DNA of 64,000 nt, taken from the NCBI GenBank assembly GCA_021464245.1, contig JADCRB010000030.1:4160367-4224366 (forward strand), read 5' to 3'. The notes beneath the pieces are model-generated. The model was not told the origin of the DNA. It saw only the letters and a list, made by a program, of their open reading frames with translations, and ran no database searches. Shown one piece after another: positions 869-52,185 of the stretch. Both the position numbers and the translations under genes were made by a program. The stretch is from Carallia brachiata (taxonomy: Eukaryota > Streptophyta > Magnoliopsida > Malpighiales > Rhizophoraceae). Within the stretch, counting starts at the first letter, position 1. The number at the start of each line of letters is the position of its first letter.

Positions 869-1388
869 GAGTATTATATTCCAGCGAACGTGGCCTGAAT
901 GTTCGGGGCTGCTGCACGCTCCACTGAAACGCCTTTTGCCTAGTCGTGCAATTCTCAGCAAACCTATTTCTTGCTTTCTTCAAAACTTTCTTCTTCTGAG
1001 GTATGTATCTGATATAACCCACATCAAGTATGTTTCTAAATTTTTTGTTTTGCTTACAAATATTTAATTTTCTTTTCGTTGATACATTTTGTGGGTTTTT
1101 TTTTTTGATTTTTTTCCTGTTTGGTGCTCGAATTCCAACAGAGTCCGAGTGAAATAGTTGAGTCATGAACATTTCCCTTTTTTTTTTTACAGTAAATTTA
1201 TTTGGCAAATGACGTATAGAAATTGTAATGTTTCCTTGTTTGATTTTTCACTTCTTTGTCAGTTTTTCTGCTTTTGGGTGTTTGAGATACTAAGCCAAGT
1301 ATGCCCAAGAAAGATTTTGAAATATGATGGCTTAAAATGTGGCAATGACAGAAAATTTATGTGCAGGAGAGGGGTGGGTCTTATTAAC
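869..1388 (+). promoter_or_regulatory. Likely promoter end, 5' UTR exon and 5' UTR intron of TDX
   Basis: A locally GC-richer block (about 869-1000) ends in CTGAG followed by GTATGT, a good plant donor at 1001. A good acceptor (TGTGCAG) ends near 1366, just before the chosen ATG at 1389. This suggests a non-coding first exon and a 5' UTR intron of about 365 bp. GAAtgTTC at 897-904 matches the core of a heat-shock element (GAAnnTTC), with another GAA at 886-888, but the 10-bp spacing is imperfect. Splice calls are by eye. Heat regulation is an inference from one motif and the chaperone link of the family. Confidence 0.4.
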
Positions 1389-4300
1389 ATGTCTAGCTCT
1401 GGGAAACACTCTGTTGGCAAGCGACCAAGAGAAGAATATGATGAATTAATAGAGATAGACTCTGATCTTGAGTTGGATAATAGTGATGTTGTGGAGCCTG
1501 ACAATGATCCTCCGCAAGTGGTAATGGAAAGAGCCAATTTTGGGGTTAGATTCCCTGAAAAAAGATAAATTTTGCTAATATTTGTATCTCTTAATTATAG
1601 ATGGGAAACCCGATGGTTGAAGTTACTGAGGAAAATCGGGATGCTTCACTAGCAGAACAGAGGAAAGCCTTGGATGCAATATCTGAAGGTGTTGATATAT
1701 AGATGCTTGTGCAGTTAGCTTTCTGTTTGAATTTGTCTTGCTTTGTTTCTTATCAATCTCTGCCTTTTCAGGGAAGCTCGGTGAAGCGGTAGATCATTTG
1801 ACAGAAGCCATAAAGTTGAATCCAACTTCGGCAATACTGTTTGCTACTAGAGGTAATTATTTCCTGTGACTGTTAATGTTATGGTGCTATTATTCCTGTT
1901 TATTTTCTTGTCGTATGGTATTTTTGGTTGGTCTTTTGTATCTTAAAATGCTTGCTTTCAGCTGATGTTTACACAAAACTTAAGAAACCAAATGCTGCTG
2001 TACGTGATGCTAATGCTGTGTTAGAGGTTAGTTATTTGTCTCATCGGCAGGAAAATAAGTTTCAAATTAATCAGTTCTGATGCAAAAGAATCTTTATTTT
2101 ATTCGTCGTGGGCTAAAGAACTGATTTATGTGGTCTAGGTCAACCCTGATTCTGCAAAGGGATATAAAGCACGAGGAATGGCAAGGGCCATGTTGGGCCT
2201 ATGGGAAGAAGCAGCAAGTGATCTGCATGCTGCATCAAAATTAGATAATGATGAGGAGATTGGTTTGATGCTGAAAAAGGTAATTGCTTTGTTTCTTTGT
2301 ACGAGCCTTTGAAGCAATCATGATTTATTAAATATAAATGAATGCACAGGTTGAGGCTAATGTTCAAAAAATTGAAGAGCACCGTAGAAAATATGAACGT
2401 TTGCAGAGAGAGAAGGAGCTTAAGAAGGCTGAGCTTGAGAAACAACGTCGCACTGAGTCGCAAGTGAGTAATATTTTTTCAAAGGGGAAAAAGAAAAACA
2501 AAATGTCATATTTTCAAAAGTCAATAAAAAGAAGAAAAGCATCCAATTTTATTTGCAAGCCATATTTGCATTGCCTAGGATGGATTGAAATTCCTTTGAA
2601 AAAATCATGAACAATGTTTTTGGCTCAATTCAATTGACACCTTGAGTTAAGCCAAAATCTGATTTAACATATGAAGAAGTGTGAAATGGAGGAAAAAGTG
2701 TGAAATAGAGGAAATGAACTAAGACAGATGTTGTGGGAGGCAAAATTTAAAATGTTAGAACTCAGTTGGCTGGTGGCTGATAAGGTAGGCTGATTAATGT
2801 GAGTGCTGAGTAGACAAATGCTATTTTGAGAGCATGGAGTAAGGTACATTGAGTGGTGAAGAATTCATTTTAATGTGATATTGTAAAAGGATTTGAAAAG
2901 ATGTTTTGGGCCTACTTTTACCAGGTTCTGCTGTGTTGGTCTTTGTACCATAGCTGTGAAGGAGAAAGACTAGGTTGTGAGTTTGATTTGTTTTTCTTCT
3001 TCTTCCAAACTACATTTACTTTATACAATAAGTGACAGCAACCGTCTTTGTGTTTCTCATGGCATAAAGATATATTTGGCAGCTTTTCTCTTTTACGGTA
3101 GTTTTCATAAGTTAATTGGCTAGGATATGCAGACAATATATGTAAACAACCTCTGGTGCTTGAGGCTTTGGTCTTGCGTCTGAAGCCAAGCAAGGCAACC
3201 CCTGATTAAAGATGCCTGTCTTGGTGCAAGGCAAGGTGCTTAGTATACAGCTGACCTTGCTGCAATCAGCATGCAATGCTAGCATCTGAACTTTTCTTAG
3301 GTTTGCTCATTTTCTTGACAACACTAAGTTCAATACATAAGAGTGTGACCGTTCAGCAATTGTTCCTTGATGTTCGTGCTGGCTACATCCCGCCATTATT
3401 GTCATAATTCCTTTAACAACTTTCTCTAATTTCAATCTTTTACCAAATCATTATTTTAGTTTCAGCTGATTACTGTGTTCAAAGTTATTGTTTCAACTTA
3501 TTGCAGGAACAGGAAGCCTTGGCTGCTTTAAAGGAGGGTATGAACTTTTATTTATTTTCTTATCACATAGCATGTGGATGGATGCATACTGATCTAAAAG
3601 AATCATTTTTTTTTGTCGTGATCAAAAGGATTTTTTTTTTGGTTCATTGGAAATTAATGCCCACATTGTGTAATTTGAGAGCAATGGACTTCCCCTTTGC
3701 TCTTATGGCCAACCTAGCTAAGCCTGGTTTTTGATCAAAGGAATCTAAACTATGATGAAGTTACTCTAAATTGATCATTGATACATCTATCACTTTGCTG
3801 CTACAAAAATGCCAATTTTTCCCGATAATGTCCCATGGTAATATGGTATTGTGTACTGTTACTGTCTAAGCTAAACTTGTATCCTGGATGTGAAGACTTG
3901 CAATTTACATATGGATGCTGTCATTAAAGCTAGACTTTATTTTTTTTGTCAAGCATTTTGTGTTGAAATTTGACCAAGACCTGGAGGAACAGTTCTAATT
4001 GAAGTGAATCAGTGAAGTATGGCAAACAACACCTTAACAGACATTGAAATGCTTTGCAACCTGCCCCCCTGTTTATAAATCGCCTTTTTGCCTAGTTTTG
4101 GGTAGAAGTTCGTAAAGTTCAAGTAAATTTCTCTTGTGAATGGCTGGTTGATGTACCTGGTGGTTATTTGTCCCCTCTTAATCTATTGCTTTTGGTTGAA
4201 CAGCAGCCATTTTGCACTGCAAAGTACATTGATTTGTTTTTATTTTTCCTATATTTGGAGTCTTCTGAGTTGTATCTTGTTGTGAATGTTAAAAACTCAC

Positions 4301-17636: not shown

Positions 17637-18163
17637 ATAAGATTTGGGGATATGTATAAAAAAAATCTTAAACTTTTAGATTTTTTTTTATTTAAGTTCT
17701 AAATCTTTTTGAAATTTTATTTCAGTTCTAAACCTTTTGATTTTACTCCAAATCAGTCCTTCCGTTAGTCAAACCGTTAAAAAATTACTGTTTACTAACG
17801 GAAATTTTTTTAAAAAGGTAAAATACACTATTTCAATTCACCAGTTAACAGAAATATTTTGTATAATCTTAAAAAAAATAAAATAAGAAATAAAAAAATC
17901 TAAAATCTCAACTTATATGTTACTATTTGAGAGTAAAATATAAGTATTTAATAACAAAAAAATATTTAAATAGTGTATTTTACCTTTTTAAAAAAAATTC
18001 TGTTAGTGAACAGTAATTTTTAACGGTTTGACTAACGGAAGGACTGATTTGGAGTAAAATCAAAAGGTTTAGGACTGAAATGAAATCTCAAAAAGGTTTA
18101 GGACTTAAATAAAAAAAAATCTAAAAGTTTAGGACTTTTTTAATGCATATCCCATAAGATTTG
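17637..18163. mobile_element. Fold-back MITE (Mutator-type) with 10-bp target duplication
   Basis: The element proper is 17647-18153 (507 bp). It starts GGGATATG and ends CATATCCC. Its arms, 17647-17833 and 17968-18153, are near-identical inverted copies of about 186 bp, leaving a loop of roughly 135 bp. It is flanked on both sides by ATAAGATTTG (17637-17646 and 18154-18163), a perfect 10-bp duplication. Long TIRs and a 9-10-bp duplication point to a non-autonomous Mutator relative. The transcript would form a long hairpin. Confidence 0.88.
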
Positions 18164-28708: not shown

Positions 28709-30090
28709 TTACATGGTTGAGAAATCTCGGATGTAGTCATCCCACATATCACTTGCAATAGAGTCTCGCAACTGTGAACTTAATTCCAGCTGTTCTGTCT
28801 CGAAAGCCATGTCCACAGCATTGTTCGCAATCTGCATTGACTGTTCAATGTCCAACGATGGCTGCGAGTCTTCAACCAGTAGAGTGGAATCTTGTTCATA
28901 CATTTCAAAAATCATATCATCTGGCTTCTCCTTGCGGATGTAATTGTGGATTGTACACGCTGCTATAACCAATTTAATCTGTGTTTGCAATGGGTACGGA
29001 GGAGCTGATGTCAATATCGGAAAACGAGTCTTCAGAGCCCCAAATATTTGTCCAGCAGCTTTTCTCAGTATGGAGTGCCTCTGATTGAATAGGTCTCTAG
29101 CACCTTGAGGATGATATGCACCCAAAAATTCATCTGAGCCATGAGGAACTCCATCATATGGGGCTATGAATCCTGGCAAATTTGCATACTTGCTATCAAC
29201 AAGGTAGTACTTTCCTGCATCATTGAGAATTTATTCAAAAAGTGACACACAACATGGAGAGAGCAGGCAAGCACTTCAGGGGATAACACCAATAGCACAC
29301 AAGAAATTTATCCTCATGCTATAAGTTTATACCTTCAGGGACTTCCAACTTGCGTTGCCTTGTAATGGCCGACTTCAGAACTCGCAAATCTAATGCAGAG
29401 CCTTCCCAACCAGCTAGAACATAATGGAACTTCAGGTCAAATGAGAAAGCTGCCAGAACAGTTTGTGAAAGCAATCCATTCTCATCACGGAAAGGACCTT
29501 GCTCATCTACACCAACCATTACTGGAATCCGTATGCCATCAACTACTCCCACACAGTCCTAGCAAAAATGAAACTGAACTGAGATACACGCCCTAAAAAT
29601 GAATGGGAGAAAAGTGACCGTAGAGTACCTTAAAATATGGATAAAATCTAGGATCTTTTGAGATTTCTGTTGGAACATCAGATCCTGGAGCCAGAAACAA
29701 ATCTCTTCTGATTTGCATAACAGCATTCAGAACATTGTTGAAATGGCGGCTAATTGTTTCTCCTGAATAACGGAATAGCTCTTGTACAGCTCGAGTTCGC
29801 AGATTGTGGCCAATGATAAACAGGAATATGGCTAATTGCTCCTCAATCTTGATCCTATTTGTGTGGCGCAGTAAGCCTCTGGCTTGTAGAGTATCACACA
29901 ACTTATAAAATACCTGCTTGTCCATGCGAAAATTTTCTAGACAGCGGTCACTTGGACCTCTTAAAACTTCATCGACAAATTTAGTGCCATTAGCTAAACT
30001 TTGACTTAGTTCTTTTGGCATATAATTGATGGACGGTCCATCTTTGTCGTCGTCAGTGATGTCCATGGAAATGTCAATATCTGCAGTCAT
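28709..30090 (-). CDS. ALP1-like, Harbinger transposase-derived protein
   Basis: Three exons: 30090-29629, 29558-29333 and 29214-28709, totalling 1194 nt (397 aa), uninterrupted. The first exon has an acidic N terminus and the HTH-like region (RMDKQVFYKLCDTLQARGLL, then RHFNNVLNAVMQI). Exon 2 has DCVGVVDGIRIPV and GWEGSALDLRVL, which carry the two aspartates of the DDE nuclease. Exon 3 has KYYLVDSKYANLPGFIAPY, then RKAAGQIFGALKTRFPIL, where active PIF/Harbinger transposases have the catalytic Glu (E-R-x-F-G). Here that position is Gly. The C-terminal helix is acidic. An intact, spliced frame with a lost catalytic residue fits domestication, as in Arabidopsis ALP1, which binds Polycomb complexes. 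That role for this gene is an inference; HDP2- or HARBI1-like are alternatives. Confidence 0.85.
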
Positions 30091-37906: not shown

Positions 37907-39148
37907 TTTTTAGATAAAAAATCTCTTAAATGTGCATAAAAGGTACCAAATTGTGGCAGTCCTCCTTCCGCATCAATTTGGTGGCTAAATTTCATTCATT
38001 TCCAAGGGCTATGAGTTGACATTGAAAGCCAACTTTGACCCTTTTGCATAGGCTACAACTAAGGGGGCAGGGATCACTGAAGGCAGTGGTCCTTGTAGGC
38101 CACAAGACAAGGATCATTCGCGCGAGTCTTATTCCTTCTTATTGGTTTTTTTTTTCAAAGTCTGCAACTGTTTTTTTTTTCCACTTCTTTTTGGGTATAA
38201 TATCTACGAGCTTATTGAAACTTCTGTAAGATGACTTATGAGGTGTTTGAGTTCACTTTTAATAATATATTTATATTTTATTTTTTAAAAAATACGAAAA
38301 TAAGTGTTTGATTAATTTTTTTGTTGTTATTTGATTTTATTTATTTCTTTATATGACATCTTAAAAATAACTAATTGAAAAGTAATTCAAAATTACTTTT
38401 GGTTATTTTTAGGTTAATTTTTAGTATTTAATATTAATAATAATTTATATACACTAAATTACTCTCATACAATATTTATACGATTTTATTATTATTTTAT
38501 TTACCACATGAATATAATTTATTAGTTGTTACTCAACTTCATCAATATTTATATAAATGCAAAATTTTTATTTTTCAATAATTCTTAAATAATTATTTTT
38601 TCACTTCAAATTTTTATTAATATTGACACTTAAAAAAATATTTCAAATATTATATTTTTTTCTATCTAGTAAACATTAATTATTTTTTAAAAAAATAAAA
38701 ATTAAAAGAGAAAACTGTCAATATTATTTATAGAATGTTTATTCTAAAAATAAAATTATAAAATATGAACATAATTTTGTTAATATAATAAATTAATGTA
38801 AATTAAATATCTAAATCAGTCATTTAATTATTTAACAGTAACAGTAAGTACAAAATTAACCAAATTCTTTATTAGTTTTTTTAACAATCAGCAACAGACA
38901 ATAACAATTAGTAATCAGCAGTTAGTAGTAACAATCAGTAGTAATAATCAATAATATTAATATCAGACAAGTATACCAAATAGACCCTTAATTGATGGTT
39001 AATCCGCACTCGTTGTCATGCAGTCGTTATCATACGTAAATCTGAAAATGAAAGAATTGCTTTAAGTCGTATAACAAACACCACTTCCTTTAAGACAAAA
39101 TTTGCCCTCACTAAATTGCAATAGAGGTATAATGTGAATTCCCTTACA
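34626..39148. other. Gene-poor, repeat-rich intergenic DNA
   Basis: 34715-34870 has tRNA-promoter-like blocks (GTGGTTTAGTGATAAA and AAGTTTGAATCTTACC), suggesting a SINE. 35480-35733 ends ATACTCCAACA followed by GGGAGAAATAAG. Reversed, this reads as an LTR start (TGTTGGAGTAT) after a polypurine tract, so it is probably a Copia LTR remnant. 38225-38995 is an AT-rich block whose ends faintly resemble hAT MITE ends. No gene is recognised. The 131-residue frame at 36755-37150 has no family resemblance. Confidence 0.4.
37834..37902. repeat. Compound (AC)n(AT)n microsatellite
   Basis: About 16 AC/CA units run directly into about 18 AT units. It is likely polymorphic and a possible cruciform-forming site. 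Confidence 0.95.
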
Positions 39149-40453
39149 TGATAAAATGAAGCACACTCGACTGCAGGTTGTAATACTGAAATCAAGCTCT
39201 CGAGAAGTTATTGTAATATCCAAAATTACTCACAAAAAGTGTATGAATTTTTCTATCTTTTCTATATTTATGTGAATGACCAATTCACATATTTACAGGG
39301 AGAATAATAAGATAGTTATTTGGCCAAGATAGTTATTTTCCCACAAAGGATTATATCTTTTTCTATGAAAGGTCGCATTTCTTTCTATGAAGAGTCATAT
39401 CTCTTTGTATGAAAGGTCGCATTTTTTTCCATATAAATTATGTTCAAGAATATGCATTTAAAGATTTACCATGTATATATATAACTATGTGCATATACAC
39501 AAAAATTTACCATGCAATTAGTCTACTATCATGAACATAATTTACTTATTCAAGGGGTACTCAGTGTATTAAAAATGCATTTATTGTGCACATTTGTTAC
39601 TACATGTGTGTAATTATTTATTATGCATGTCACACATTAACCCCAAAATATGCTTGACATTATTTACATGCAATCAACGAGACAATTCACAAGGCAGAAT
39701 AGAAAATATAACATGACATGTTCCTAGTTGCCTTAATCATCGATCCCAAAACAATTACTATAACTCTTGATTTTTCCACATATCATAGATATTCTTAATT
39801 AATGTCATCAAACAAGTAAGAAAATAAGACATACATTAATCAAGAGTAAGACTTATTTGATCATTTCACAGTTTTAGACGTTAATTCTTTAAAAATTCCA
39901 ATCACGAACCATAAATAATTTTGCAGGATAAAATGAAGCACACTCGACTGCTGGTTGTAATACTGAAATCAAGTTCTCGAGAATTTATTGTAATATCCAA
40001 AATTACTCATAAAAAGTGTATGAATTTTTTATCTTCTCTATTTATATGACTGACCATATCATATAGTTATAAGGAGATTAATTCGGTAATTATTTGGTCA
40101 AGAGATGAGTCTTTTGGGTCCAATAGACACGACTCTTTTAACGTGTCTATATGATAAAATGAAGCACACTCGACTGCTGGTTGTAATACTGAAATCAAGC
40201 CCTCAAGAATTTATTGTAATATCCAAAATTACTCACAAAAAGTGTATTAATTTTTCTATCTTCTCTATTTATGTGACTGACCATATCATATAGTTATAAG
40301 GAGATTAATTCGGTAATTATTTGGTCAAGAGATGAGTCTTTTGGGTCCAATAGACACGACTCTTTTAACGTGTCTCTTCATTAATGGACGCATCTCCATA
40401 ACCACCAAATTAATTAGGGGACACGACCTTATATATTTTGAAAATTCCCCAAC
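39149..40453 (-). repeat. Copia-type LTR remnant with repeated segments
   Basis: A segment starting GATAAAATGAAGCACACTCG occurs at 39149, 39928 and 40153. The last two form a tandem repeat with a 225-bp period. The block ends at 40453 with TTCCCCAACA followed by ATCTCCCGTC. On the minus strand this is a polypurine tract (GACGGGAGAT) followed by the LTR start TGTTGGGGAA. A TATA-like ATATATAAGG lies just inside. This is the 3' LTR of a minus-strand Copia element whose coding part is not recognisable. Confidence 0.6.
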
Positions 40454-42490: not shown

Positions 42491-43283
42491 TGTAAAGCGT
42501 AAATTTCGAGTCTAAAATAATTAAACTCGAAAATACAAAAATAAATTACAAATAAAAATTGTAAAAATAAAAGAAAATTTACGTGGAGTCGATCTTCGTA
42601 GATCCTCCGATTAGTGTTCCTTTTTTGACTCCGTCAAGGGCTGCACGAGCTTGATCTTGATAGAAATAATTTCCACCGCTTTTTCTTGAACTAGATAGAC
42701 TGAAACTGTATCTGATTTGGACGTTTTGACTACGTTTAGGAACCGCAAAGATCTGATTTGAGCCGATTTGACTTAATTTCACCGAGGGTCGAAGGAACTG
42801 TTCTCGGATGAGCTGCCTAGATTTTACTGAGGGCCGTATGAGGCTTAATCCAGCCGAGGATTTATAATATTTTGATATTTTAAGATCTATATTTTCACAG
42901 ATTCAGATTTGATACGATCGGAGAATATAAATCTAAAATAACTTAGAAACGGAAATAGTATTTTTTTTTTTACTTTGCACCTGAGATATCTTTCTCAAAA
43001 GAGTTAAAATATATCACAGAGTACACAATTTTTTTTTTACTATCTCTCTTCTTGTTTTACTTTTTTTTTTCCGCCTGCTTTCTCCTTTTTTTCGCTGCTC
43101 TCTGCGTCGCTTCGCTGCCTGCCTTCTTTTTCTGCCCTTTCTTTCAATTGGGGAGGCCAATTTATAGGCCTCCCCCACCTGCCTGCCACCAACCATTTGG
43201 TTGGTGGCATTAAAGGTTGGCAGCTGCCAACCTTGACTTCAAGGTTGGCGGCTGCCAACCATTTTTTTTTTTATTTGTTTACA
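42491..43283 (-). repeat. 3' LTR of the Tat element
   Basis: 793 bp with TGTAAA...TTTACA inverted ends. On the minus strand U3 begins at 43283. A TATA box (complement of TTTATA at 43161-43166) sits in GGCCTATAAATTGGCC, placing the transcript start near 43130. U3 contains an 18-bp perfect palindrome, GGTTGGCAGCTGCCAACC (43215-43232), and a near copy at 43243-43260. Confidence 0.85.
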
Positions 43284-43302
43284 AATGCCCCCACTTCAAG
43301 GG
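43284..43302 (-). other. Polypurine tract of the Tat element
   Basis: On the minus strand the sequence before the 3' LTR reads CTTGAAGTGGGGGCATT, a purine-rich tract of the type that primes plus-strand synthesis in Tat elements. Confidence 0.7.
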
Positions 43303-44172
43303 TCAGTAAGGAAGATTTTTACAGAAATGATTCAAACCGAGTCTTGAAGTCCAGTTTGAAATTTGGAAACGTCTTGATGAACATTGAATCTTGGAGTCTT
43401 CTATCTTTGAATATCTGCTGTTGTTGGATCGCAATAGGAATCCGATACGATCTTGAGAAAGTTAGCAGCCCAGCCAATATAGAAATTGAAGCCTTGGCTC
43501 CAGGTGCATTCGAGCTTCCATAGCTCGCAAAGGCTGGCAAAGGTTCTTTGAAGTTCCAAAGCTCTGGTGAGGATGATCCGGTAGGCAAAGAACTTGAACC
43601 TCCCCAAGAGGAAGGCCCAACACTTTGGAACTTCAAACCGACACACAGAGAGACTGACTGTAGTGATGATTCCAAGTCTGCTCGACGTAAGGAGAGTAGT
43701 TGGAACTTCCCCGTACATCGCCGCATCCAAAGGAAGATTAGGATGATTGCAGCGTCTCATCCCTCTGTGGTAGATGTGAACTAAGGAGAGTAGTTGGAAC
43801 TCCATGACACCGATGGCGTTAGGGATCCCTCGAGGAAGACTACTCCTTCTTTTCTTAGCTCGTGCGCCTCCAACTTCTTGATCGAAGAACTTCCTGGACA
43901 AGTAGAGACTAGCCATTTTCTTTTGAGAGAAGAAGAGCTGAGGGGTGAGTATTATTTCGGAATGCAGATATATATACATAAATAAAGATTTTTTTTTTTG
44001 AAAAGTCAAAAAGAAGGTACGCAGAATCGAGTAGGGTCATCCACGTCCCTTTCCTGCATAAGAGACAAAAGAGGCAGCGGCTGACGCGTTACGAAAGTCG
44101 TTACCGTGTGTTGCAGAAGTCGTTGCCGTGTGCTGCAGAAGTCGTTACCGTGTGCTGCAAGGTCGTTGCACC
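43303..44172 (-). other. Spacer between the homeobox gene and the 3' LTR
   Basis: Contains repeated phrases (AAGGAGAGTAGTTGGAACT near 43690 and 43782; AGTCGTTACCGTGTGCTGCA-like units at 44095-44160). A minus-strand frame of 202 residues spans 43401-44009 without recognised domains. MASLYLSRKFFDQEVGGARA inside it looks like a possible start, but the repeats make real coding doubtful. Confidence 0.4.
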
Positions 44173-44797
44173 TTATCTTGTCGGCCGTCCTAGCGGGGCC
44201 CGAGGCAACTCCAAGTCAAGCTCGACCTCGTCTGGTGGGCCGATGATGTTGACGTCGACGCTTTCCGGCTGGTTGATGCCGGAATATTCTGGAAAGAGAG
44301 GCAAAGTTTCGCCGGAATGACTCCTTTCTGCTAAAAATTCCTCCTAGACTTAAGTATCTAGGAGGGATGAACCCTTGGCTGACTCCGTAAGACCACCAGG
44401 ACCAGCATGCATGCTCCCATGGGCTACGGCTTTGATGAACATACCGTGGAGAGACCATTGCAGTGGAAGAACTCGGACCTGCTTCATTTGAGGGCGAAGC
44501 TGTACCGGTGGGATTTACTATCGGAACGACAGACTGTTCTTTGGAAAAAGCAGTTCTCAGTGCTGGTTTCTTCCTGCTTCTCCGATTCTGGAACCAATAA
44601 AACACATTTTTTCCTTCGATTGCCCCGAGCGGGCGCAATCGTGAGACAAGTTGGTAAATTTGAGATGCACTAGGAATAATACCTCCATTGTTGTGGAAGA
44701 CTTCCTCCAAAATTTGCAGTTGTGCCATGGTCGGTTGCCACCTTGTGCGGGGTGACCTTTCTTCTCCCTTGTCTTGAGGTTCTGCAACTGGTTCCAT
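44173..44797 (-). CDS. WUSCHEL-type homeobox (WOX) gene captured by the Tat element
   Basis: From the ATG at 44797 the product reads MEPVAEPQDKGEERSPRTRW. It enters a homeodomain at about residues 17-80: RWQPTMAQLQILEEVF, then HNNGGIIPSASQIYQLVSRL, then IEGKNVFYWFQNRRSRKK. IEGKNVFYWFQN is the signature third helix of WUS-clade WOX factors; RRSRKK recalls the WOX8/9/11/12 clade. This frame stays open to 44216. One base-shift away, the frame at 44343-44173 contains ETLPLFPEYSG, the WUS-box TLxLFP (44290-44307). It ends in VELDLELPRAP (LDLEL at 44206-44220), an EAR-like repressor motif. A single frameshift or a small intron must connect the halves. WOX proteins are nuclear transcription factors that maintain stem cells. 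Sense orientation and position place it inside the element. Function and expression are unknown. Confidence 0.82.
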
Positions 44798-44885
44798 CTT
44801 TCTTGTGGCAGAGGAGCAAAGGTCTTGGTATGTGGTGAAGATCGGTTGAGACTGATGCTGAGTTTCAGACTCAAACCCTCCGTCG

Positions 44886-44893
44886 CTTTTATA
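44886..44893 (-). promoter_or_regulatory. TATA box of the captured homeobox gene
   Basis: TATAAAAG on the minus strand within AAAAATATAAAAGCGACGG, about 90 bp before the ATG at 44797. This leaves room for a leader of roughly 60 nt. It suggests the cassette has its own promoter in addition to the LTR. Confidence 0.55.

Positions 44894-45178: not shown

Positions 45179-45224
<46 letters not shown>
45179..45224. repeat. 46-bp poly(T) run
   Basis: Uninterrupted T, hence poly(A) on the coding strand of the element, between integrase and the CCCAAA repeat. It could mark the junction of inserted retro-copied sequence, or be slippage; the length may be an assembly estimate. Confidence 0.85.
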
Positions 45225-45228
<4 letters not shown>

Positions 45229-45384
45229 ATATTTACACATAATACTGTTTCAGAAATTTACCATTGATTGGGCCGATTCGGACGCCTTCTTGGTCTGACA
45301 GCATGTAAGCGTTGTGAGTGTAGGCCTCCTGCACTAAGTATGGCCCGTCCCATTTGGAAGTAAGCTTGTCACCAGGCCGATGCT

Positions 45385-46295
45385 TCATGTTGATGGGCCG
45401 TCGCACTGCAAGAACAAGGTCTCCAACTTGAAAAGATCGAGGGCGGACCCTGCGGTTGAACGTGTTGGTGAGCCGGGCTTGGTAGCATTCAAGTTGCTGT
45501 TGTGCTTCGAGCCTCCTTTCATCGAGGCTTCTAACTCATCCAGACGTAGGCGAGCCTGTGTGAGTCCTTCCAGAACAGCCATGCGCAGGGATGGAATCTG
45601 TGTTTCCAACGGCAGTATTGCTTCGACACCGTAGACAAGTGAGTATGGCGTCGCCTGTGTTGGAGTCCGGTAAGTTGTACGATACGCCCATAATGCCTCC
45701 GGAATTCTGTCATGCCAATCTCTTTTGGATTTAGAGACTACCTTCCGCAACAGGTTGCATAAGGTCTTGTTGAATGCTTCGGCCAAGCCATTTGCTGGGG
45801 CATTGTACATGGATGACTTGTACTGCTTGAACTTGAACTTCTCGCAGAGCTTGTCGATTAAGCTGTTGTAGAACTGCTTACCATTATCAGTGATGATGAA
45901 TCGAGGGACTCCATAGCGATAGATCAGCTGAGTCCGGATGAAATTGGCAACATGCTCCTTCTTTACCTCTCTAAGTGGAATGGCTTCAGCCCATTTTGAG
46001 AAGTAGTCGGTTGCTGCGAGGATGTACAGGTGACCCAGGGATGACTTTGGCAAGGGCCCCACTAAGTCGAGACCCCAAGCTTCAAAGGGCCAGGATGAGA
46101 CAGTTGGATGCAGTGGCTCCGGTGGTTGATGTATGTAATTCGCATGAAATTGACAAGCTTGACAGTTTTAGCAAACTCAATTGAATCACGTACCAGTTGG
46201 CCAGTAGTATCCCATCCTTCTGAGTTGGAAGTGCAACTTAGGCCCGATTGATGTCCGCCACAAACACCAGAATGTGNCCTGTTTTGCCTCTTCAT
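45385..46295 (-). pseudogene. Integrase of the Tat element (frameshifted)
   Basis: The main frame (46062-45385) holds the rve core: VGPLPKSS, YILAATDYFSKWAEAIPLRE, ITDNGKQFYNSL and ANGLAEAFNKTL, with the second Asp and the Glu of the DDE triad visible. The zinc-finger N terminus lies upstream in other frames (46295-46062), split by frameshifts and an ambiguous base at 46276. It integrates the cDNA copy; this copy is unlikely to be made intact. Confidence 0.88.
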
Positions 46296-46526: not shown

Positions 46527-47399
46527 CTATCCATTTCTGACATACAGCAACAACTGTAGCCTGGATTTCTGACTTTGCAAGAGAGTGGCCAGGTTAGCCA
46601 ACGCGTCTGCCTGAGTGTTTTCTCGTCGAGGCCCATGCTCCAAGGTGATGCTTTCAAATTCATCCATTAGCTGTCGAGCACGTTGATGGTAAGGCGCAAG
46701 GTCCTCTTTCTTCACGTCATACAATCCTGTAAGTTGGTTGATGACGAGCTGGGAATCTCCATGGACTTCTATAGTTGGAATCTTCATATCGACAGCCATT
46801 TGAAGACCAATGATCAAAGCCTGGTATTCAGCAACATTATTTGAACATAACTCACCGAGAATGATAGCATATGGTAGTATTTGTCGTTGAGGAGTGACAA
46901 ACACTATGCCGGCACCAGCACCATCACGCCTTGCTGCACCATCAAAGAACATCGTCCATGGTGGCAGTGTCTCAATGTAAAAGACCTCTTCATCTGGAAG
47001 ATCATCTGTGAACTCCCAATCTGACGGAACAGGGTGATCTGCAAGGAAGTCTGCTAGAGCTTGTCCTTTGACTGCTTTTTGAGGCACGTAGACAATGTCG
47101 TAGCTTTGTAGGATTACTGCCCACTTGGCAAGTCGTCCTGACAAGATTGGTCTGGATAAGATATATTTGACAGGATCAGCTCTGGCAATGAGACGTACCG
47201 TGTGAGCTTGCATGTAGTGCCTCAGCTTGTCAATGGCAAAGAACAGTGCTAGACATGTCTTTTCAATGGGCGAATAACTCAGCTCCGGACCGTTTAGTGT
47301 TCTGCTCAAGTAGTACAGGGCAACTTCCTTTCCCTGCTCATTTTCCTGTGCAAGCAAGGCTCCCAAAGATCTTTCCTGCGCTGCAATGTAGAGAATCAA
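46527..47399 (-). pseudogene. RNase H plus second (archaeal-type) RNase H of the Tat element
   Basis: The N-terminal half is the usual RT-linked RNase H (ERSLGALLAQEN, then LAKWAVILQSYDIVYVPQKA, then ALADFLADHP). The C-terminal half is a second RNase H with acidic residues in MFFDGAARRDGAGAG, NVAEYQALIIGLQ, VHGDSQLVINQL and TQADALANLA. The dual arrangement is characteristic of Tat elements. Open for 290 residues but separated from RT by a frameshift near 47450. Confidence 0.9.
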
Positions 47400-47452
47400 C
47401 GACTTTCCTTGAATTGGAGCACCTAGGACCGGTGGATTGGAAAGGTACTTCT

Positions 47453-48229
47453 TTATGCTTCAAAGGCTTTGCTGCAAGCTTCGTCCCACTCGAAGTTGAC
47501 ATCCTTCTTCATCAACCGATGGAAAGGTTGACATCTCCCAGCTAAATTGGAGATGAAACGGCGAATGTAGGCCAGCTTTCCTTGTAGACTTCGCAGCTCG
47601 TGCAGGTTTTTAGGTTCAGGCATCTTTTGAATTGCCTCAACCTTTGACTGATCAACTTCGATTCCACGATGGCGCACCACGAACCCAAGAAACTTTCCTG
47701 ATGTGACACCGAATGCGCACTTGAGAGGGTTCATTTTGAGCTGATGCCTCCGAAGTCTTTCGAACACTGTCTTGAGATCCTCGAGGTGGTCTTTGCGCTT
47801 CTTAGTCTTTACAACTAAGTCATCAACATAACATTCTACAATCTTGTGCAGCATGTCATCAAAAATTTTTTGCATAGCACGTTGATAAGTGGCGCCAGCA
47901 TTTTTCAATCCAAACGGCATAACTTTGTAGCAGTATATACCTTTTGGGGTGCGGAATGCTGTCAACTCCTCGTCTTCTGGTGCCATTCTGATTTGGTTAT
48001 AGCCTGAAGAACCATCCATGAAGGACAATGCTTCGTGACCCGTTGTTGCATCGACTGTGATCTCCGTTATGGGCAATGGAAAGTCATCTTTCGGGCAGGC
48101 CTTGTTAAGATCTCGAAAATCAACACATACCCTCAACTGTCCATTCTTCTTTCTTACCGGGACAATGTTGGCAATCCACGTTGGGTAGGTGACCTCTCGG
48201 ATGAAGCCGGCATTGATCAGCTTGTTCAC
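47453..48229 (-). pseudogene. Reverse transcriptase of the Tat element
   Basis: RVT_1 domain with RVCVDFRDLNKACPKDDFPL, FMDGSSGYNQI, MPFGLKNAGATYQRAM and the catalytic YVDD (ECYVDDLVVKT), then FLGFVVRHRGIEVD. The frame ends just after SKAFEA, where related elements continue into KKYL, consistent with loss of one base at 47450-47453. The N-terminal RT part lies in the frame ending at 48226. Confidence 0.92.
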
Positions 48230-49320
48230 CTCCTCCTCGATTTGTGGAATGAGTTCCGGGCGGAACCGTCGTTGTGGCTGCTTGACAGAACGACACCCTT
48301 CTTTACTGCTAGACGATGCACCGCAATTTTTGGGTCAAGTCCAGGCATTTCTTTGTAACTCCATGCGAACACGTCCCTGTATTGACTTAATACCTGAACA
48401 TATTCTTGCTCTTCTTCTGCAGTAAGTAAAGCACTTACAAATGTAGGTCGAGGATCTTCCGGAGAGCCAAGATTGACCTCCTTGAGTTCATCAACAGTTG
48501 CTTGGCCACCATCTTCAAGTTCCGGGGGAGCCTCCTTCACTTCACCATCTGATGAGTCAGACTCAGCCTCCTCGCTGATTGTGACATGAAATGTGGAGCC
48601 TCTGACTTCACCTTCTTTGTTTGACTGGATAAGCCTGTCTTGTTTGGTGGTGGTGGTGATGGCACGTGCATCAGCTGCTCGGCTTCGGCTCTTTAGCGTG
48701 ATCCGCACAGGTGACTTCTCCTGATAGCCTAAGCCAGGTCGGGACTGTGATGTTTGAGAAGCGGCGCCATGTGTGGACGGCAGCGTACCCATTGTGCTCG
48801 GGTTTGAGAAGTCATAGCCCGCCTTTGCCAAAAGCTTGTATGCATTAGGATCAAATCCTTCATGTGTTCTTCTTTCTGGAAGTGAGCCGCCTTCGACTGC
48901 CCCCGTGTGTGGTTTGACGAAGCCTTTTAATGGTTTTGAAGACAAAACCGGCTCAATCTTTGGTATCGGCAGAGTGTAAGTCTCCTTCAGGTTGTGCAGC
49001 TCCTTTGTTTTGGGTTGGCTATGACCTTGCTCCTGTTTAAGATCAATACAATAAGAGAAAGGGGGTTGACCTTCTGAGCGTCGTGACTTCGGCACATAGC
49101 GTAGGACTGGAGTGGAGCTTGAAGATGCAACATCCTTACGGAGTTCAGCAGGCTGTGGCAGCTTTTCATTTGTTGGAGCCTGGGTTGGCATTGGCAGGTT
49201 CTTCGACAGCTTTTCCCTTTTTGTGGATGCCCCCAGTCCAAGTAGCTTTTGATGGAATGATCTCCGGATTGTCTGTGTCGGTGTAGAAGACTGCATCCGC
49301 CAAATATGATTCAGCATCAT
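48226..49320 (-). pseudogene. Protease-RT connector of the Tat polyprotein
   Basis: Open 364-residue frame with low domain content. It holds a spacer rich in S, T, K and E. Near the end AEEEQEYVQVLSQYRDVFAW, then SYKEMPGLDPKIAVHRLAV, is the typical entry to plant Ty3 reverse transcriptase. The frame shifts after AVKKG, before the RT core. Confidence 0.75.
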
Positions 49321-49681
49321 CGAACGGCTTTAAGTCAGCATTGACCTTTTGAACACCACCATTGTAGTACTTGAAGCACTGATGCAGGCTTGAGAGCACA
49401 ACTCCATTTCCATGAATCCACGGTCGTCCTAGCAACATCTTATATGTGGTACGTGCATCAATCACGTGAAATAGAGTGCTAGAAGTGAGATTACCGATAG
49501 TTAGCTCCAAGCGAATCATCCCAATTGCTTTCTGTCCTCCTTGATTAAAGCCATGAATCATCAAGCGGCTGTCTGATAATTCATCAATGCCGATGCCGAG
49601 CTCCTTTATGGTGGATTTTGGGATAATATTGACTGCTGAGCCATCGTCGATCAGAATACGTCGGACCTTCTGTTCTTTCAC
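49166..49681 (-). pseudogene. Aspartic protease of the Tat element
   Basis: Active-site region RRILIDDGSAVNIIP (the D-x-G/S class seen in Tat elements), then TYKMLLGRPWIHGNGVV and LHQCFKYYNGG, as in related plant proteases. It overlaps the connector frame at its C-terminal end, indicating a frame change around 49300. Confidence 0.85.
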
Positions 49682-51693
49682 ATAGCCTGATACATACAGC
49701 GGCCGATTGTGGGGTTTGGACCCCAGCAGGAGATCCTCATCTGAAAATGAGATAGCAGAGTAACATCCGACGTGATTTTGGCCGCCTGTTGCTCCGCTGA
49801 GTTAGAATCATTTGATGGCTGTGATTCAGCTGAGGTCTGGAGAGTATTGCTGACTTGATTTTGCCACACTTCTGTTGATTGCAAAGCTATAAACAGCTGA
49901 GGGTTAGCGAGAAGGGTTTGGAGAGCTTCATATACCTTCTCCGTTGTCGACTTTTTGTTGTCGAGCGGCTCCTCCTTACGGTGTGTCACTCTTCTGATGG
50001 TTTTGAAGTGATGGTGGTTGGTTTGCCGAGGTTGCCTTCCTGGTCCAGAATGATTTTATTCTGGCTTGAGCTTCATGATTAGCTCCTTCAGGACGAAACA
50101 CTTCTCGGTTGGATGACTTACTATCCGGTGATATTTGCAGAATCTCGGATCGCTGACTCGATCCTTTTCATTCGGCCGCTTGCACTCTGGGAGTTCGATC
50201 AGCTTCGCCTCCAAGAGTTGTTCAAGAATGTCGGGGACGTCTGAGTCGGGGAATGGATACTGCTTCTGCTCCAACTCTCGCAATGTCACCTTCCGCCTTT
50301 CCTGTTGTTTTGGCTGAGTTATTTGGGTCGGAGGATTTACTTTAGCTTGGCGCCCACTTTTACTGGTGCGGCTTCAACAGTCATCACTTCTTTCCTTTTC
50401 CGGAGCTGTTGGGTTTCTTAATCTCCCTTCTGCCCCCTTGCTGGTCCAACTGGATGGGAACCGTGCCTCCGGAAGTCTGGATGCTTATCTCCATATCATG
50501 TGCGCGGGTCGCCAGTTCTTCGAAAGTTCGGGGTTTGACACCCTGCAGGATGTATAACAGCTCCCAATGCATTCCCTGGATGCACATCTCACGGCAGAAG
50601 TCTCAGGCGATCTTTGCAGTCCAAGCTGAGGGCACGCCATCTGTTGATGTATTCGACAACGGGCTCTCCTTTCCTTTGTTTGGTGCTGGTAAGCTCCATC
50701 ATACTTACCGTCCTTCGAGTGCTGAAAAATCTGTTGAGGAACTCTCGTTGTAGCTGTTCCCAACTGTCGATCGATTCTGGTTCAAGATTTATGAACCAGG
50801 TGAAAGCGGTCTCCCTGAGTGAACGAACAAACTGCTTCACCAAGAGATCTCCATAAGTCCCTGCGTTGTTGCAGGTTTCAACGAAGTGGGCGATGTGCTG
50901 TTTGGGATCGCCTCGTCCGTCGAATTGTTGAAATTTGGGCGGCTGGTAGCCCAAGGGCATGTTGAGACTTTCGATCCGTCTGGTGTACGGTTTGACGTAC
51001 ATCTGTGATCCTTGGAAGGATGTAGCTTGTTGCAGTCGGATCGTATTGGCTATCATTTCCTGCAATTGTTGAACAGATAGCGAAGCTAGGGAATTTGAGG
51101 GTGGCAGCTGTGTAGAACTACCTGGTCGCTTTTCTGCAGGGAAGACGTCGGCTGGTGTGGCTTCTGGAGTGAAACCGGGTGGATATGGTTGCTCCTCGCG
51201 GATTTCGGGATCAACTTGGATCGGGGCTTTTCCTTTGAGAGCTGCATCTGTTGATCTTTTTCCTCCACGACTCTGATCAGCTGCAAAATTTTGTTCTCCA
51301 ATTCTGAAATCTTTCCTCTGTGCTGGTTGTGTTGGTCATCATGACGGCAACAGATGAGGCTCCGGGAAAGACTGGGGGAGAAAACTCTTCTGATTCTGTG
51401 GATCTCTGTGAGTGGATTTGTTGAGCAGGCTTCGTCGTGTTGCCCCCGACTTCGATCGGGGTGGGTGATCGACTCCTCCATGCGGCAAGAGAGTCAGGGG
51501 AGAGATCCTGTTGTGCGAGCTGTGGACTCTCCATTTCGATATTTTGTCGGGTTTGGACGGCAAGAAATTGTGTCCGTCCCCGGGTTTCTGGACCTGCGTA
51601 CCCAGGTAGGGTAGTTGATGCAGGCAGTGGAGCCGTTGCCTTCTTTTTGTGGCAGCTGTACTCCTTTTCGGTGCCATTTGATGTGCTGAACAC
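49678..51693 (-). pseudogene. Gag region of the Tat element (several frames)
   Basis: The core gag domain lies at 51065-50589 (YQPPKFQQFDGRGDPKQHIA, then VKQFVRSLRETAFTWFINLE, then WEQLQREFLNRFF). The C-terminal part continues in other frames at 50587-50384 and 50289-50056, with a zinc-finger-like CKYHRIVSHPTEKC. The N-terminal leader lies at 51693-51086. The frame changes indicate at least three indels. It forms the particle shell in intact relatives. Confidence 0.85.
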
Positions 51694-51852: not shown

Positions 51853-51878
51853 GATGTCCACCGAGCGTGCCAAAAATT
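51853..51878 (-). other. Primer-binding region of the Tat element
   Basis: Directly inside the 5' LTR the minus strand reads AATTTTTGGCACGCTCGGTG. TTGGCACGCxCGGTGG is the primer-site type seen next to LTRs of Tat relatives. The matching tRNA was not determined. Confidence 0.6.
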
Positions 51879-52185
51879 TGTAAAGCGTAAATTTCGAACC
51901 TANNNNNNNNNNNNNNNNNNNNNNNNNNNNNNNNNNNNNNNNNNNNNNNNNNNNNNNNNNNNNNNNNNNNNNNNNNNNNNNNNNNNNNNNNNNNNNNNNN
52001 NNNNNNNNNNNNNNNNNNNNNNNNNNNNNNNNNNNNNNNNNNNNNNNNNNNNNNNNNNNNNNNNNNNNNNNNNNNNNNNNNNNNNNNNNNNNNNNNNNNN
52101 NNNNNNNNNNNNNNNNNNNNNNNNNNNNNNNNNNNNNNNNNNNNNNNNNNNNNNNNNNNNNNNNNNNNNNNNNNNNNNNNNNNNN
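51879..52185 (-). other. Start of the 5' LTR and assembly gap
   Basis: 51879-51902 matches the 3' LTR end (TGTAAAGCGTAAATTTCGA) and then runs into Ns at 51903-52185. Sequence after the gap does not match the 3' LTR, so the rest of the 5' LTR is missing or collapsed in the gap. Gap length may be nominal. Confidence 0.85.

Follow-up and report, generated by a model that had tools for sequence, protein, structure and literature searches.

A WUSCHEL-like homeobox gene carried by Tat-type LTR retrotransposons in the genome of Carallia brachiata

Results

The window analysed here, a 64,000-nucleotide stretch of Carallia brachiata DNA (GCA_021464245.1, contig JADCRB010000030.1, positions 4,160,367-4,224,366), carries on its minus strand an element in which Pfam recognises gag, protease, reverse transcriptase, RNase H and integrase in Ty3/gypsy order. 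Beyond the integrase follow a poly(A) tract, a TATA box, the ATG of a homeobox gene, a polypurine tract (PPT) and the 3' LTR. In window coordinates, and in the direction of the element, the features are:

51879..51902, minus: 3' end (24 bp) of the 5' LTR, 19 bp of which match the end of the 3' LTR exactly (E 1.4e-5)
51861..51874, minus: primer-binding-site-like stretch (PBS) adjoining the 5' LTR end, assigned from sequence and position
50589..51335, minus: gag (Pfam Retrotrans_gag, E 1.1e-11)
49166..49801, minus: aspartic protease (Asp_protease_2 / gag-asp_proteas, E 4e-4, under the curated cut-offs)
47453..48334, minus: reverse transcriptase (RVT_1, E 5e-35)
46527..47459, minus: RNase H and a second, additional RNase H (RT_RNaseH and RVT_3 within a single ORF)
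45233..46167, minus: integrase, core at 45385-46167 (rve, E 6.5e-11)
45233-45535, minus: C-terminal part of the integrase, in a separate frame (SH3_Tf2-1, E 1.4e-4, under its cut-off)
44884..44893, minus: TATA box TATAAAAGCG, about 95 nt 5' of the homeobox ATG
44216..44797, minus: homeobox ORF of 193 codons, opened by the ATG at 44797 and closed by the stop codon 44218-44216
44567..44749, minus: WUS-type homeodomain (Pfam PF00046, E 9.1e-13)
44290..44307, minus: WUS-box TLPLFP, out of the homeodomain frame in this copy
44206..44220, minus: EAR-like LDLEL motif, sharing its frame with the WUS-box
43401..43916, minus: second ORF-like stretch (MASLYLS...) downstream of the homeobox gene, its length varying among copies
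43286..43297, minus: polypurine tract GAAGTGGGGGCA, assigned from sequence and followed by the 3' LTR
42491..43283, minus: 3' LTR of 793 bp, TGTAAA...TTTACA, directly after the polypurine tract

Two RNase H domains are given as a feature unique to the Tat lineage in the sections of PMC6317226 that treat them, and by this second RNase H we assign the window element to the Tat-type Ty3/gypsy LTR retrotransposons. As its gag and pol domains fall into several frames, this copy appears to be dead. The 3' LTR is complete, whereas the 5' LTR is visible only as its last 24 bp, the remainder falling into the N gap 51903-52185. Integrase and homeobox gene are separated by a long poly(A) tract (45179-45225, minus), and gag, too, is preceded by A-rich tracts. 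The MASLYLS... stretch was considered as a second gene and dropped, since its frame varies from 11 to 223 codons across copies and has no Pfam match.

A sequence-only reading of this DNA had placed a WUSCHEL-type homeobox gene between integrase and PPT on the coding strand of the element, and here Pfam, the coordinates and the closest solved structure to the homeodomain, that of WUSCHEL itself (6ry3, E 4.9e-18), all agree. The span of 44173..44797 proposed for the gene is right as regards its ATG at 44797, but the frame that stops at 44173 is a second one, which holds TLPLFP and LDLEL, while the frame of the homeodomain (229 codons from stop to stop) ends at 44216. Because the two motifs lie in this second frame, the window gene must change frame between linker and WUS-box; it is broken after the homeodomain. 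The homeodomain itself is intact, as had been noted, in an element whose gag and pol are split. An intron between homeodomain and WUS-box was considered on account of the frame change and dropped, as sister copies read through in a single frame. In full-length copies the WUS-box stands in the homeodomain frame, as TLPLFP or as variants such as ILPLFP.

The protein combines a WOX-type homeodomain, whose loop is of WUS length, with a WUS-box and an EAR-like tail containing LxLxL, and it begins with ME as many WUS proteins do. Where the box reads TLPLFP it is of the WUS type, WOX1-3 in our alignment having TLQLFP, TLALFP or TLDLFP. Structure prediction gives a confident three-helix homeodomain, with helices within residues 24-75 and low confidence elsewhere, and a Foldseek search with the model of a sister copy having the same homeodomain as the window returned only WUS or STENOFOLIA homeodomains among its 11 matches at E<=0.001. 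By these sequence features the gene belongs to the modern clade of WOX genes, with WUS its probable source. In a tree of 42 homeodomains (62 columns), the kind of check that had been proposed, the five sequences from element copies cluster together (91/86) at the end of a long stem. As drawn they branch outside the WUS rows, and 62 columns are too few to give their place among the WOX rows. The homeodomain is identical to that of Turnera WUS at 33 of 62 residues, while two other places in the genome match Turnera WUS at 74-80% over the matched stretch. Judged by this divergence the capture is not a recent one, contrary to what the intact homeodomain had been taken to hint. The matches of two protein-database searches were WOX, WUS and homeobox proteins without a name; among those listed (72 of 72 in one search, 120 of 468 in the other) identity did not exceed 60%, and no element-borne relative was recognised. 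Scans of viral contigs with the WOX ORF and the reverse transcriptase found no relative.

We searched the genome from which the window comes (164 contigs, 337.5 Mb), each search scoring the best 138-150 of 1372-3134 candidates, so that copy numbers are lower bounds and the lists favour well-kept copies. For one host gene, Erythroxylum (74%) and Salix (71%) gave the closest of the named database matches, behind two unnamed metagenome proteins (75-76%), which is suggestive of Malpighiales. With the window ORF as query, all of the best 150 of 3134 candidates matched, at 79-100% identity, and the gene is not confined to one copy, which answers the recurrence question raised by the earlier reading. 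Seventy loci were read, comprising the 30 best matches (the window copy, L001, among them) and 40 picked from the list. A natural full-length frame of 203-214 aa, running from ATG through the C-terminal motif, is present in 44 of the 70. Among these 44 the WUS-box is TLPLFP in 18, ILPLFP in 21, ILPLFQ in four and ILPLLP in one; LDLEL is present in 41, and 41 frames have the homeodomain, a T/I-LPL-type WUS-box and LDLEL together. L008 may serve as an example of a complete copy (MEPVAEPQDKGEERSP-homeodomain-linker-SGETLPLFPEYSGSINQPESDVNIIGPPDEVELDLELHLGPR, 203 aa). One identical protein (group B, with ILPLFP) is encoded by 10 of the loci read and another by four.

With a full-length copy protein as query, 137 of the best 150 of 2306 candidates were without internal stops (13 had them), and 112 of these best 150 align without a stop across all 203 residues. 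At least 11, the query included, tie at the top score and are identical through 203 residues. A further 15 rows of equal score from the same search likewise align over all 203 residues, and the one read in two pieces is complete, with WUS-box and tail. In the group with eleven identical copies the box reads ILPLFP, a variant that may or may not be a working WUS-box. Row tallies for this search, and for those with Turnera WUS and the integrase, were counted by eye. The Turnera WUS search scored the best 138 of 1372 candidates, of which the nine strongest (two at 74-80% and seven at 56-66% identity) lie elsewhere than the element copies and are presumed to be normal WOX genes of the host. Many known element copies are among the remaining 129 rows (37-47%), of which 58 are equal in score to one decimal across WUS residues 33-138, a stretch that by itself is no proof of completeness.

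The surroundings of the gene recur with it. At 56 of the 70 loci the gene is preceded, in the same orientation, by the C-terminal end of an integrase or what is left of it, at a median of 559 nt ahead of the homeodomain. Of 40 loci checked downstream, all have sequence matching the window 3' LTR; PPT and LTR start follow the gene in 30, while the other 10 have an LTR start with altered PPT (six) or the pattern was not found (four). TATAAA occurs 94-120 nt 5' of the ATG in every one of the 66 ATG-bearing loci (of 70); of random 130-bp windows taken from the same loci, 11% contain it. With the integrase as query, all of the best 147 of 3096 candidates matched, and for 24 of them, picked by eye and including that of the window, a WOX match is listed on the same strand at a distance of 483-1233 nt downstream. 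Over the matched stretch, many copies of the integrase agree with the window's at 99-100% and have a short open frame, often of 263-314 codons; a short-frame integrase lineage seems, from these sequences, to have multiplied with broken pol.

Target site duplications (TSDs) were tested in three copies, L041, L044 and L047. L041 is an element of ~9.7 kb with GTACA on both sides and LTRs that mismatch at 8 of 588 aligned bases, and has lost the PPT region and the start of the 3' LTR. The LTRs differ at 3 of about 988 bases in L044 (~5.0 kb, TSD CAACC) and at 9 of about 1037 in L047 (~5.2 kb, TSD ATTAG). Judged on these three, the elements have TG..CA LTR ends, a PPT, a PBS and 5-bp TSDs. Their LTR pairs enclose the homeobox gene, which settles for these three copies the question of LTR enclosure that the window copy had raised; in the window copy itself the LTR pair encloses the gene as far as the assembly reaches. 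At mutation rates of 7e-9 to 1.3e-8 per site and year, the three insertions date to roughly 0.1-1 million years ago.

Seven of 40 loci (L033, L034, L043, L044, L047, L048 and L065) are short elements, in which the end of the 5' LTR or the leader after the PBS lies less than 1.5 kb from the homeobox gene. Gag and pol are absent from all seven, save for a relic of ~190 bp resembling the 3' end of the integrase in six. Seven further loci (L035, L042, L045, L046, L049, L066 and L067) retain a piece of gag and have no integrase, L054, L059 and L061 have no passing integrase match, and the other 23 have an integrase. The homeobox frame is the longest in the four short elements with listed frames, and of the eight frames scanned in L044 it alone has a Pfam match (Homeodomain, E 3.3e-9), its EAR match (E 0.025) falling under the cut-off. 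Since the short elements are without gag and almost all of pol, we infer that they are copied in trans. One homeobox gene clade (100/100) is found on two LTR types, at eight loci of type 1 and ten of type 2, and the other clade spans three; the LTR types are our own assignment. Between the group B locus L033 and L008, 14 of 62 homeodomain residues differ, the recognition helix included (NVYFWFQNRRHRETV vs NVFYWFQNRRSRKKP), and the C-terminus is nearly unchanged. The helix residues make an altered DNA target possible for group B.

NG86 gave 0.48 for comparisons between groups, with values of 0.31-0.40 for the homeodomain. A composition-aware test gave P values of 0.02-0.37 in seven comparisons of group A with group B (one pair entering twice, once per direction) and of 0.07-0.96 in four comparisons within group A. 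Across 44 copies, nonsynonymous to synonymous (N/S) counts were 61:32 for shared changes vs 70:29 for singletons, and the sole hint came from the group A homeodomain (shared 4:8 vs singletons 19:10). We make no claim of purifying selection, as the NG86 signal is weakened by the composition-aware null and the shared-vs-singleton comparison is flat. Diversity within group B is 0.004 in the ORF (dS 0.010) vs 0.05-0.11 in the flanks. As these copies were picked by WOX similarity this is not counted as proof, and divergence at silent sites of the ORF, too, is far below that of the flanks, in keeping with recent spread or exchange of modules.

Copies chosen instead by a 100% identical integrase (C47, C70 and C130) have the homeobox gene in place in all three cases, and in all three its frame is broken: by several frame changes in L074, by one between start and homeodomain in L075, where the remainder is open, and by a premature stop in L076. 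Those lineages may therefore dispense with WOX. The selection to which the intact homeodomain of the window had been thought to point accordingly fares poorly, with N/S tests weak or neutral and these three frames broken. Ten integrase rows have a frame open over at least 400 codons, and eight of these have a listed stop-free WOX match (two seen only over WUS residues 33-138); of the other two, C91 has stops in WOX and C73 has no listed WOX. The association between open integrase and open WOX frames is only suggestive because the lists favour well-kept copies. WUS-type motifs are not enriched in three LTRs or two homeobox promoters, and autoregulation through WUS sites in the LTRs was rejected on this ground.

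Discussion

We consider it very probable that a Tat element took up a WUSCHEL-like gene long ago, and that the gene has spread both in cis and in trans as what is likely a second, TATA-driven transcription unit. Under this proposal a Tat-type LTR retrotransposon would have gained a plant gene with homeodomain, WUS-box and EAR-like tail, placed in sense orientation between integrase and 3' LTR and served by its own TATA box. Full-size elements would copy the gene in cis, while the shortened ones, which keep LTRs, PBS, PPT and the homeobox gene, would need copying in trans. The anatomy of the element, the recurrence, the TSDs, the young insertions and the complete natural frames were all seen directly, and the fold is predicted to be of WUS type. 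These Tat elements carry a WUSCHEL-type gene as a widespread cargo that has multiplied recently, and the short derivatives carry hardly anything else. The suggestion of the sequence-only reading that the element had captured a regulator gene of stem-cell type and may spread it is borne out by recurrence and by the TSD-flanked copies. The protein would be expected to be made, to bind DNA as WUS does, and to recruit TOPLESS-type co-repressors through WUS-box and EAR-like tail. The step of which we are least certain is that the protein aids the element, most simply by acting in the shoot stem cells that found the germ line; this we put forward tentatively, and would sooner expect it to be wrong than right.

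If the gene were instead a host WOX gene beside the element, or one hit by a chance insertion, the window alone would fit, as its 5' LTR is hidden in the N gap. We give this practically no credence, as the same gene appears in all of the best 150 scored candidates of 3134, on many contigs and not at a single-copy host locus, with 3' LTR sequence downstream at 40 of 40 loci checked and within TSD-flanked LTR pairs in the three copies tested, and nine stronger WUS matches sit elsewhere in the genome. It is the recurrence inside TSD-flanked elements that refutes it. Another possibility is that of a passive cargo, in which the captured gene brings no benefit and complete frames persist as many copies are young; we rate this at slightly below an even chance. 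Shared and singleton changes are alike in N/S (61:32 vs 70:29 over 44 copies), the composition-aware P values run from 0.02 to 0.37 between groups A and B and from 0.07 to 0.96 within A, all three integrase-chosen copies are broken and enrichment of WUS sites is absent, all of which speaks for a passive cargo. Against this, complete three-motif frames occur in both gene groups and several subgroups, and short elements kept the homeobox gene while losing gag and pol. Moreover, the homeodomain has diverged from WUS at about half its residues yet keeps its core, along with the WUS-box and EAR-like tail, which is hard to account for without selection at some time since the capture.

It might also be that the element-borne gene is now domesticated, serving the host for instance as an extra meristem regulator, and the many complete copies could be read in this way. 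The pages of PMC11405225 on the Rosa chinensis WOX family describe a comparably odd WUS-like expansion, with 381 WOX genes, 364 of them in rose-only clades and 226 of the 381 on one chromosome, and one WOX gene of the survey is reported to act in rooting when overexpressed. In Carallia, however, the copies are scattered, the frame is polymorphic, the dated copies are young and element context follows at 40 of 40 loci checked downstream, and we regard domestication as quite improbable. Most members of the largest rose clade are reported to have TLPLFPMHGED and LELSLNSY, and the authors, in the same pages, want more evidence on the expansion (PMC11405225). Rosa and the present case are alike in having very many WUS-like proteins in a single genome, but the C-terminal sequence of the element gene differs from that of the rose proteins as these pages describe them. 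The rose expansion might be another WUS amplified by transposons.

Returning to the capture by a Tat element, several known systems invite comparison. Retand/Tat elements typically bear extra ORFs between pol and 3' LTR, according to the descriptions in PMC11963269, PMC6317226 and PMC7264820. In the account of PMC11963269 these are mostly antisense, with TRP28, Smc and few other domains, and none of the sense ORFs of this region has a known domain there. The Carallia elements resemble these in their two RNase H domains and in the spare room between pol and 3' LTR, occupied by extra genes with DNA-related domains, but differ from those that PMC11963269 describes in that the gene is in sense, comes with a TATA box of its own and can be recognised as a developmental regulator of plants. 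As with LTR retrotransposons that have transduced host genes, such as Bs1 of maize, a host gene lies in sense between the LTRs. Transduced aORFs occur in one or a few copies in the account of PMC11963269, whereas here the cargo is widespread among the elements of the family, with many complete copies, and is found also in derivatives devoid of gag-pol. The gene resembles the WUSCHEL/WOX modern clade in the WUS-length loop of its homeodomain, (E)TLPLFP in 18 of 44 copies, the LxLxL tail and the ME start. It departs from WUSCHEL in residing in a retrotransposon, in a homeodomain only about half identical, in NRRSRKK in place of NHKARERQ, in another linker, in a short tail and in ILPLFP in 21 of the 44 copies.

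The earlier reading knew of no WOX-carrying retrotransposon, and likewise our literature searches brought up no WOX-bearing LTR retrotransposon among the papers listed. The strings 'homeo', 'wuschel' and 'wox' are absent from the main text of PMC11963269, PMC7264820 and PMC11728184, as are 'homeo' and 'wuschel' from that of PMC6317226. Gene capture by LTR retrotransposons is already known and is usually described as limited to one copy or a few. The gene captured in the present case is of a type that rules plant stem cells, is widespread among the elements of the family, is complete in many copies and is kept in stripped elements. If the protein works, the spread of a mobile element would be tied to the stem cells from which the germ line arises, and manipulation of the host meristem becomes testable; if it does not, the family remains useful as a natural experiment, and a clean one, on the survival time of a captured regulator. 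Genome-wide WOX surveys may also mistake transposon genes for host genes.

Acute transforming retroviruses are defective LTR elements that swapped gag-pol for a captured host growth regulator, and the short elements have similarly traded gag-pol for a captured host regulator. They differ in belonging to a plant retrotransposon, with no envelope gene seen and spread taken as vertical. By this analogy the short elements could be a plant counterpart of such viruses, the WUS-like repressor being kept because it raises the germ-line share of insertions; we think this unlikely, though not far-fetched. The repressor would then enlarge the stem-cell pool, or alter WUS-controlled defence or silencing in shoot stem cells.

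Other features of the window

Pieces derived from a PIF/Harbinger-like transposase lie at 28709-30090 (minus), with a DDE_Tnp_4 match (E 1.3e-6) in 28709-29230; the ORF at 29593-30090 (minus), which has no Pfam match, looks like the N-terminal part of such a transposase. A large palindrome of 507 bp occupies 17647-18153 and matches its own reverse complement at 81%, and local direct repeats of ~125-225 bp, 83-98% alike, are found at 39145-40375.
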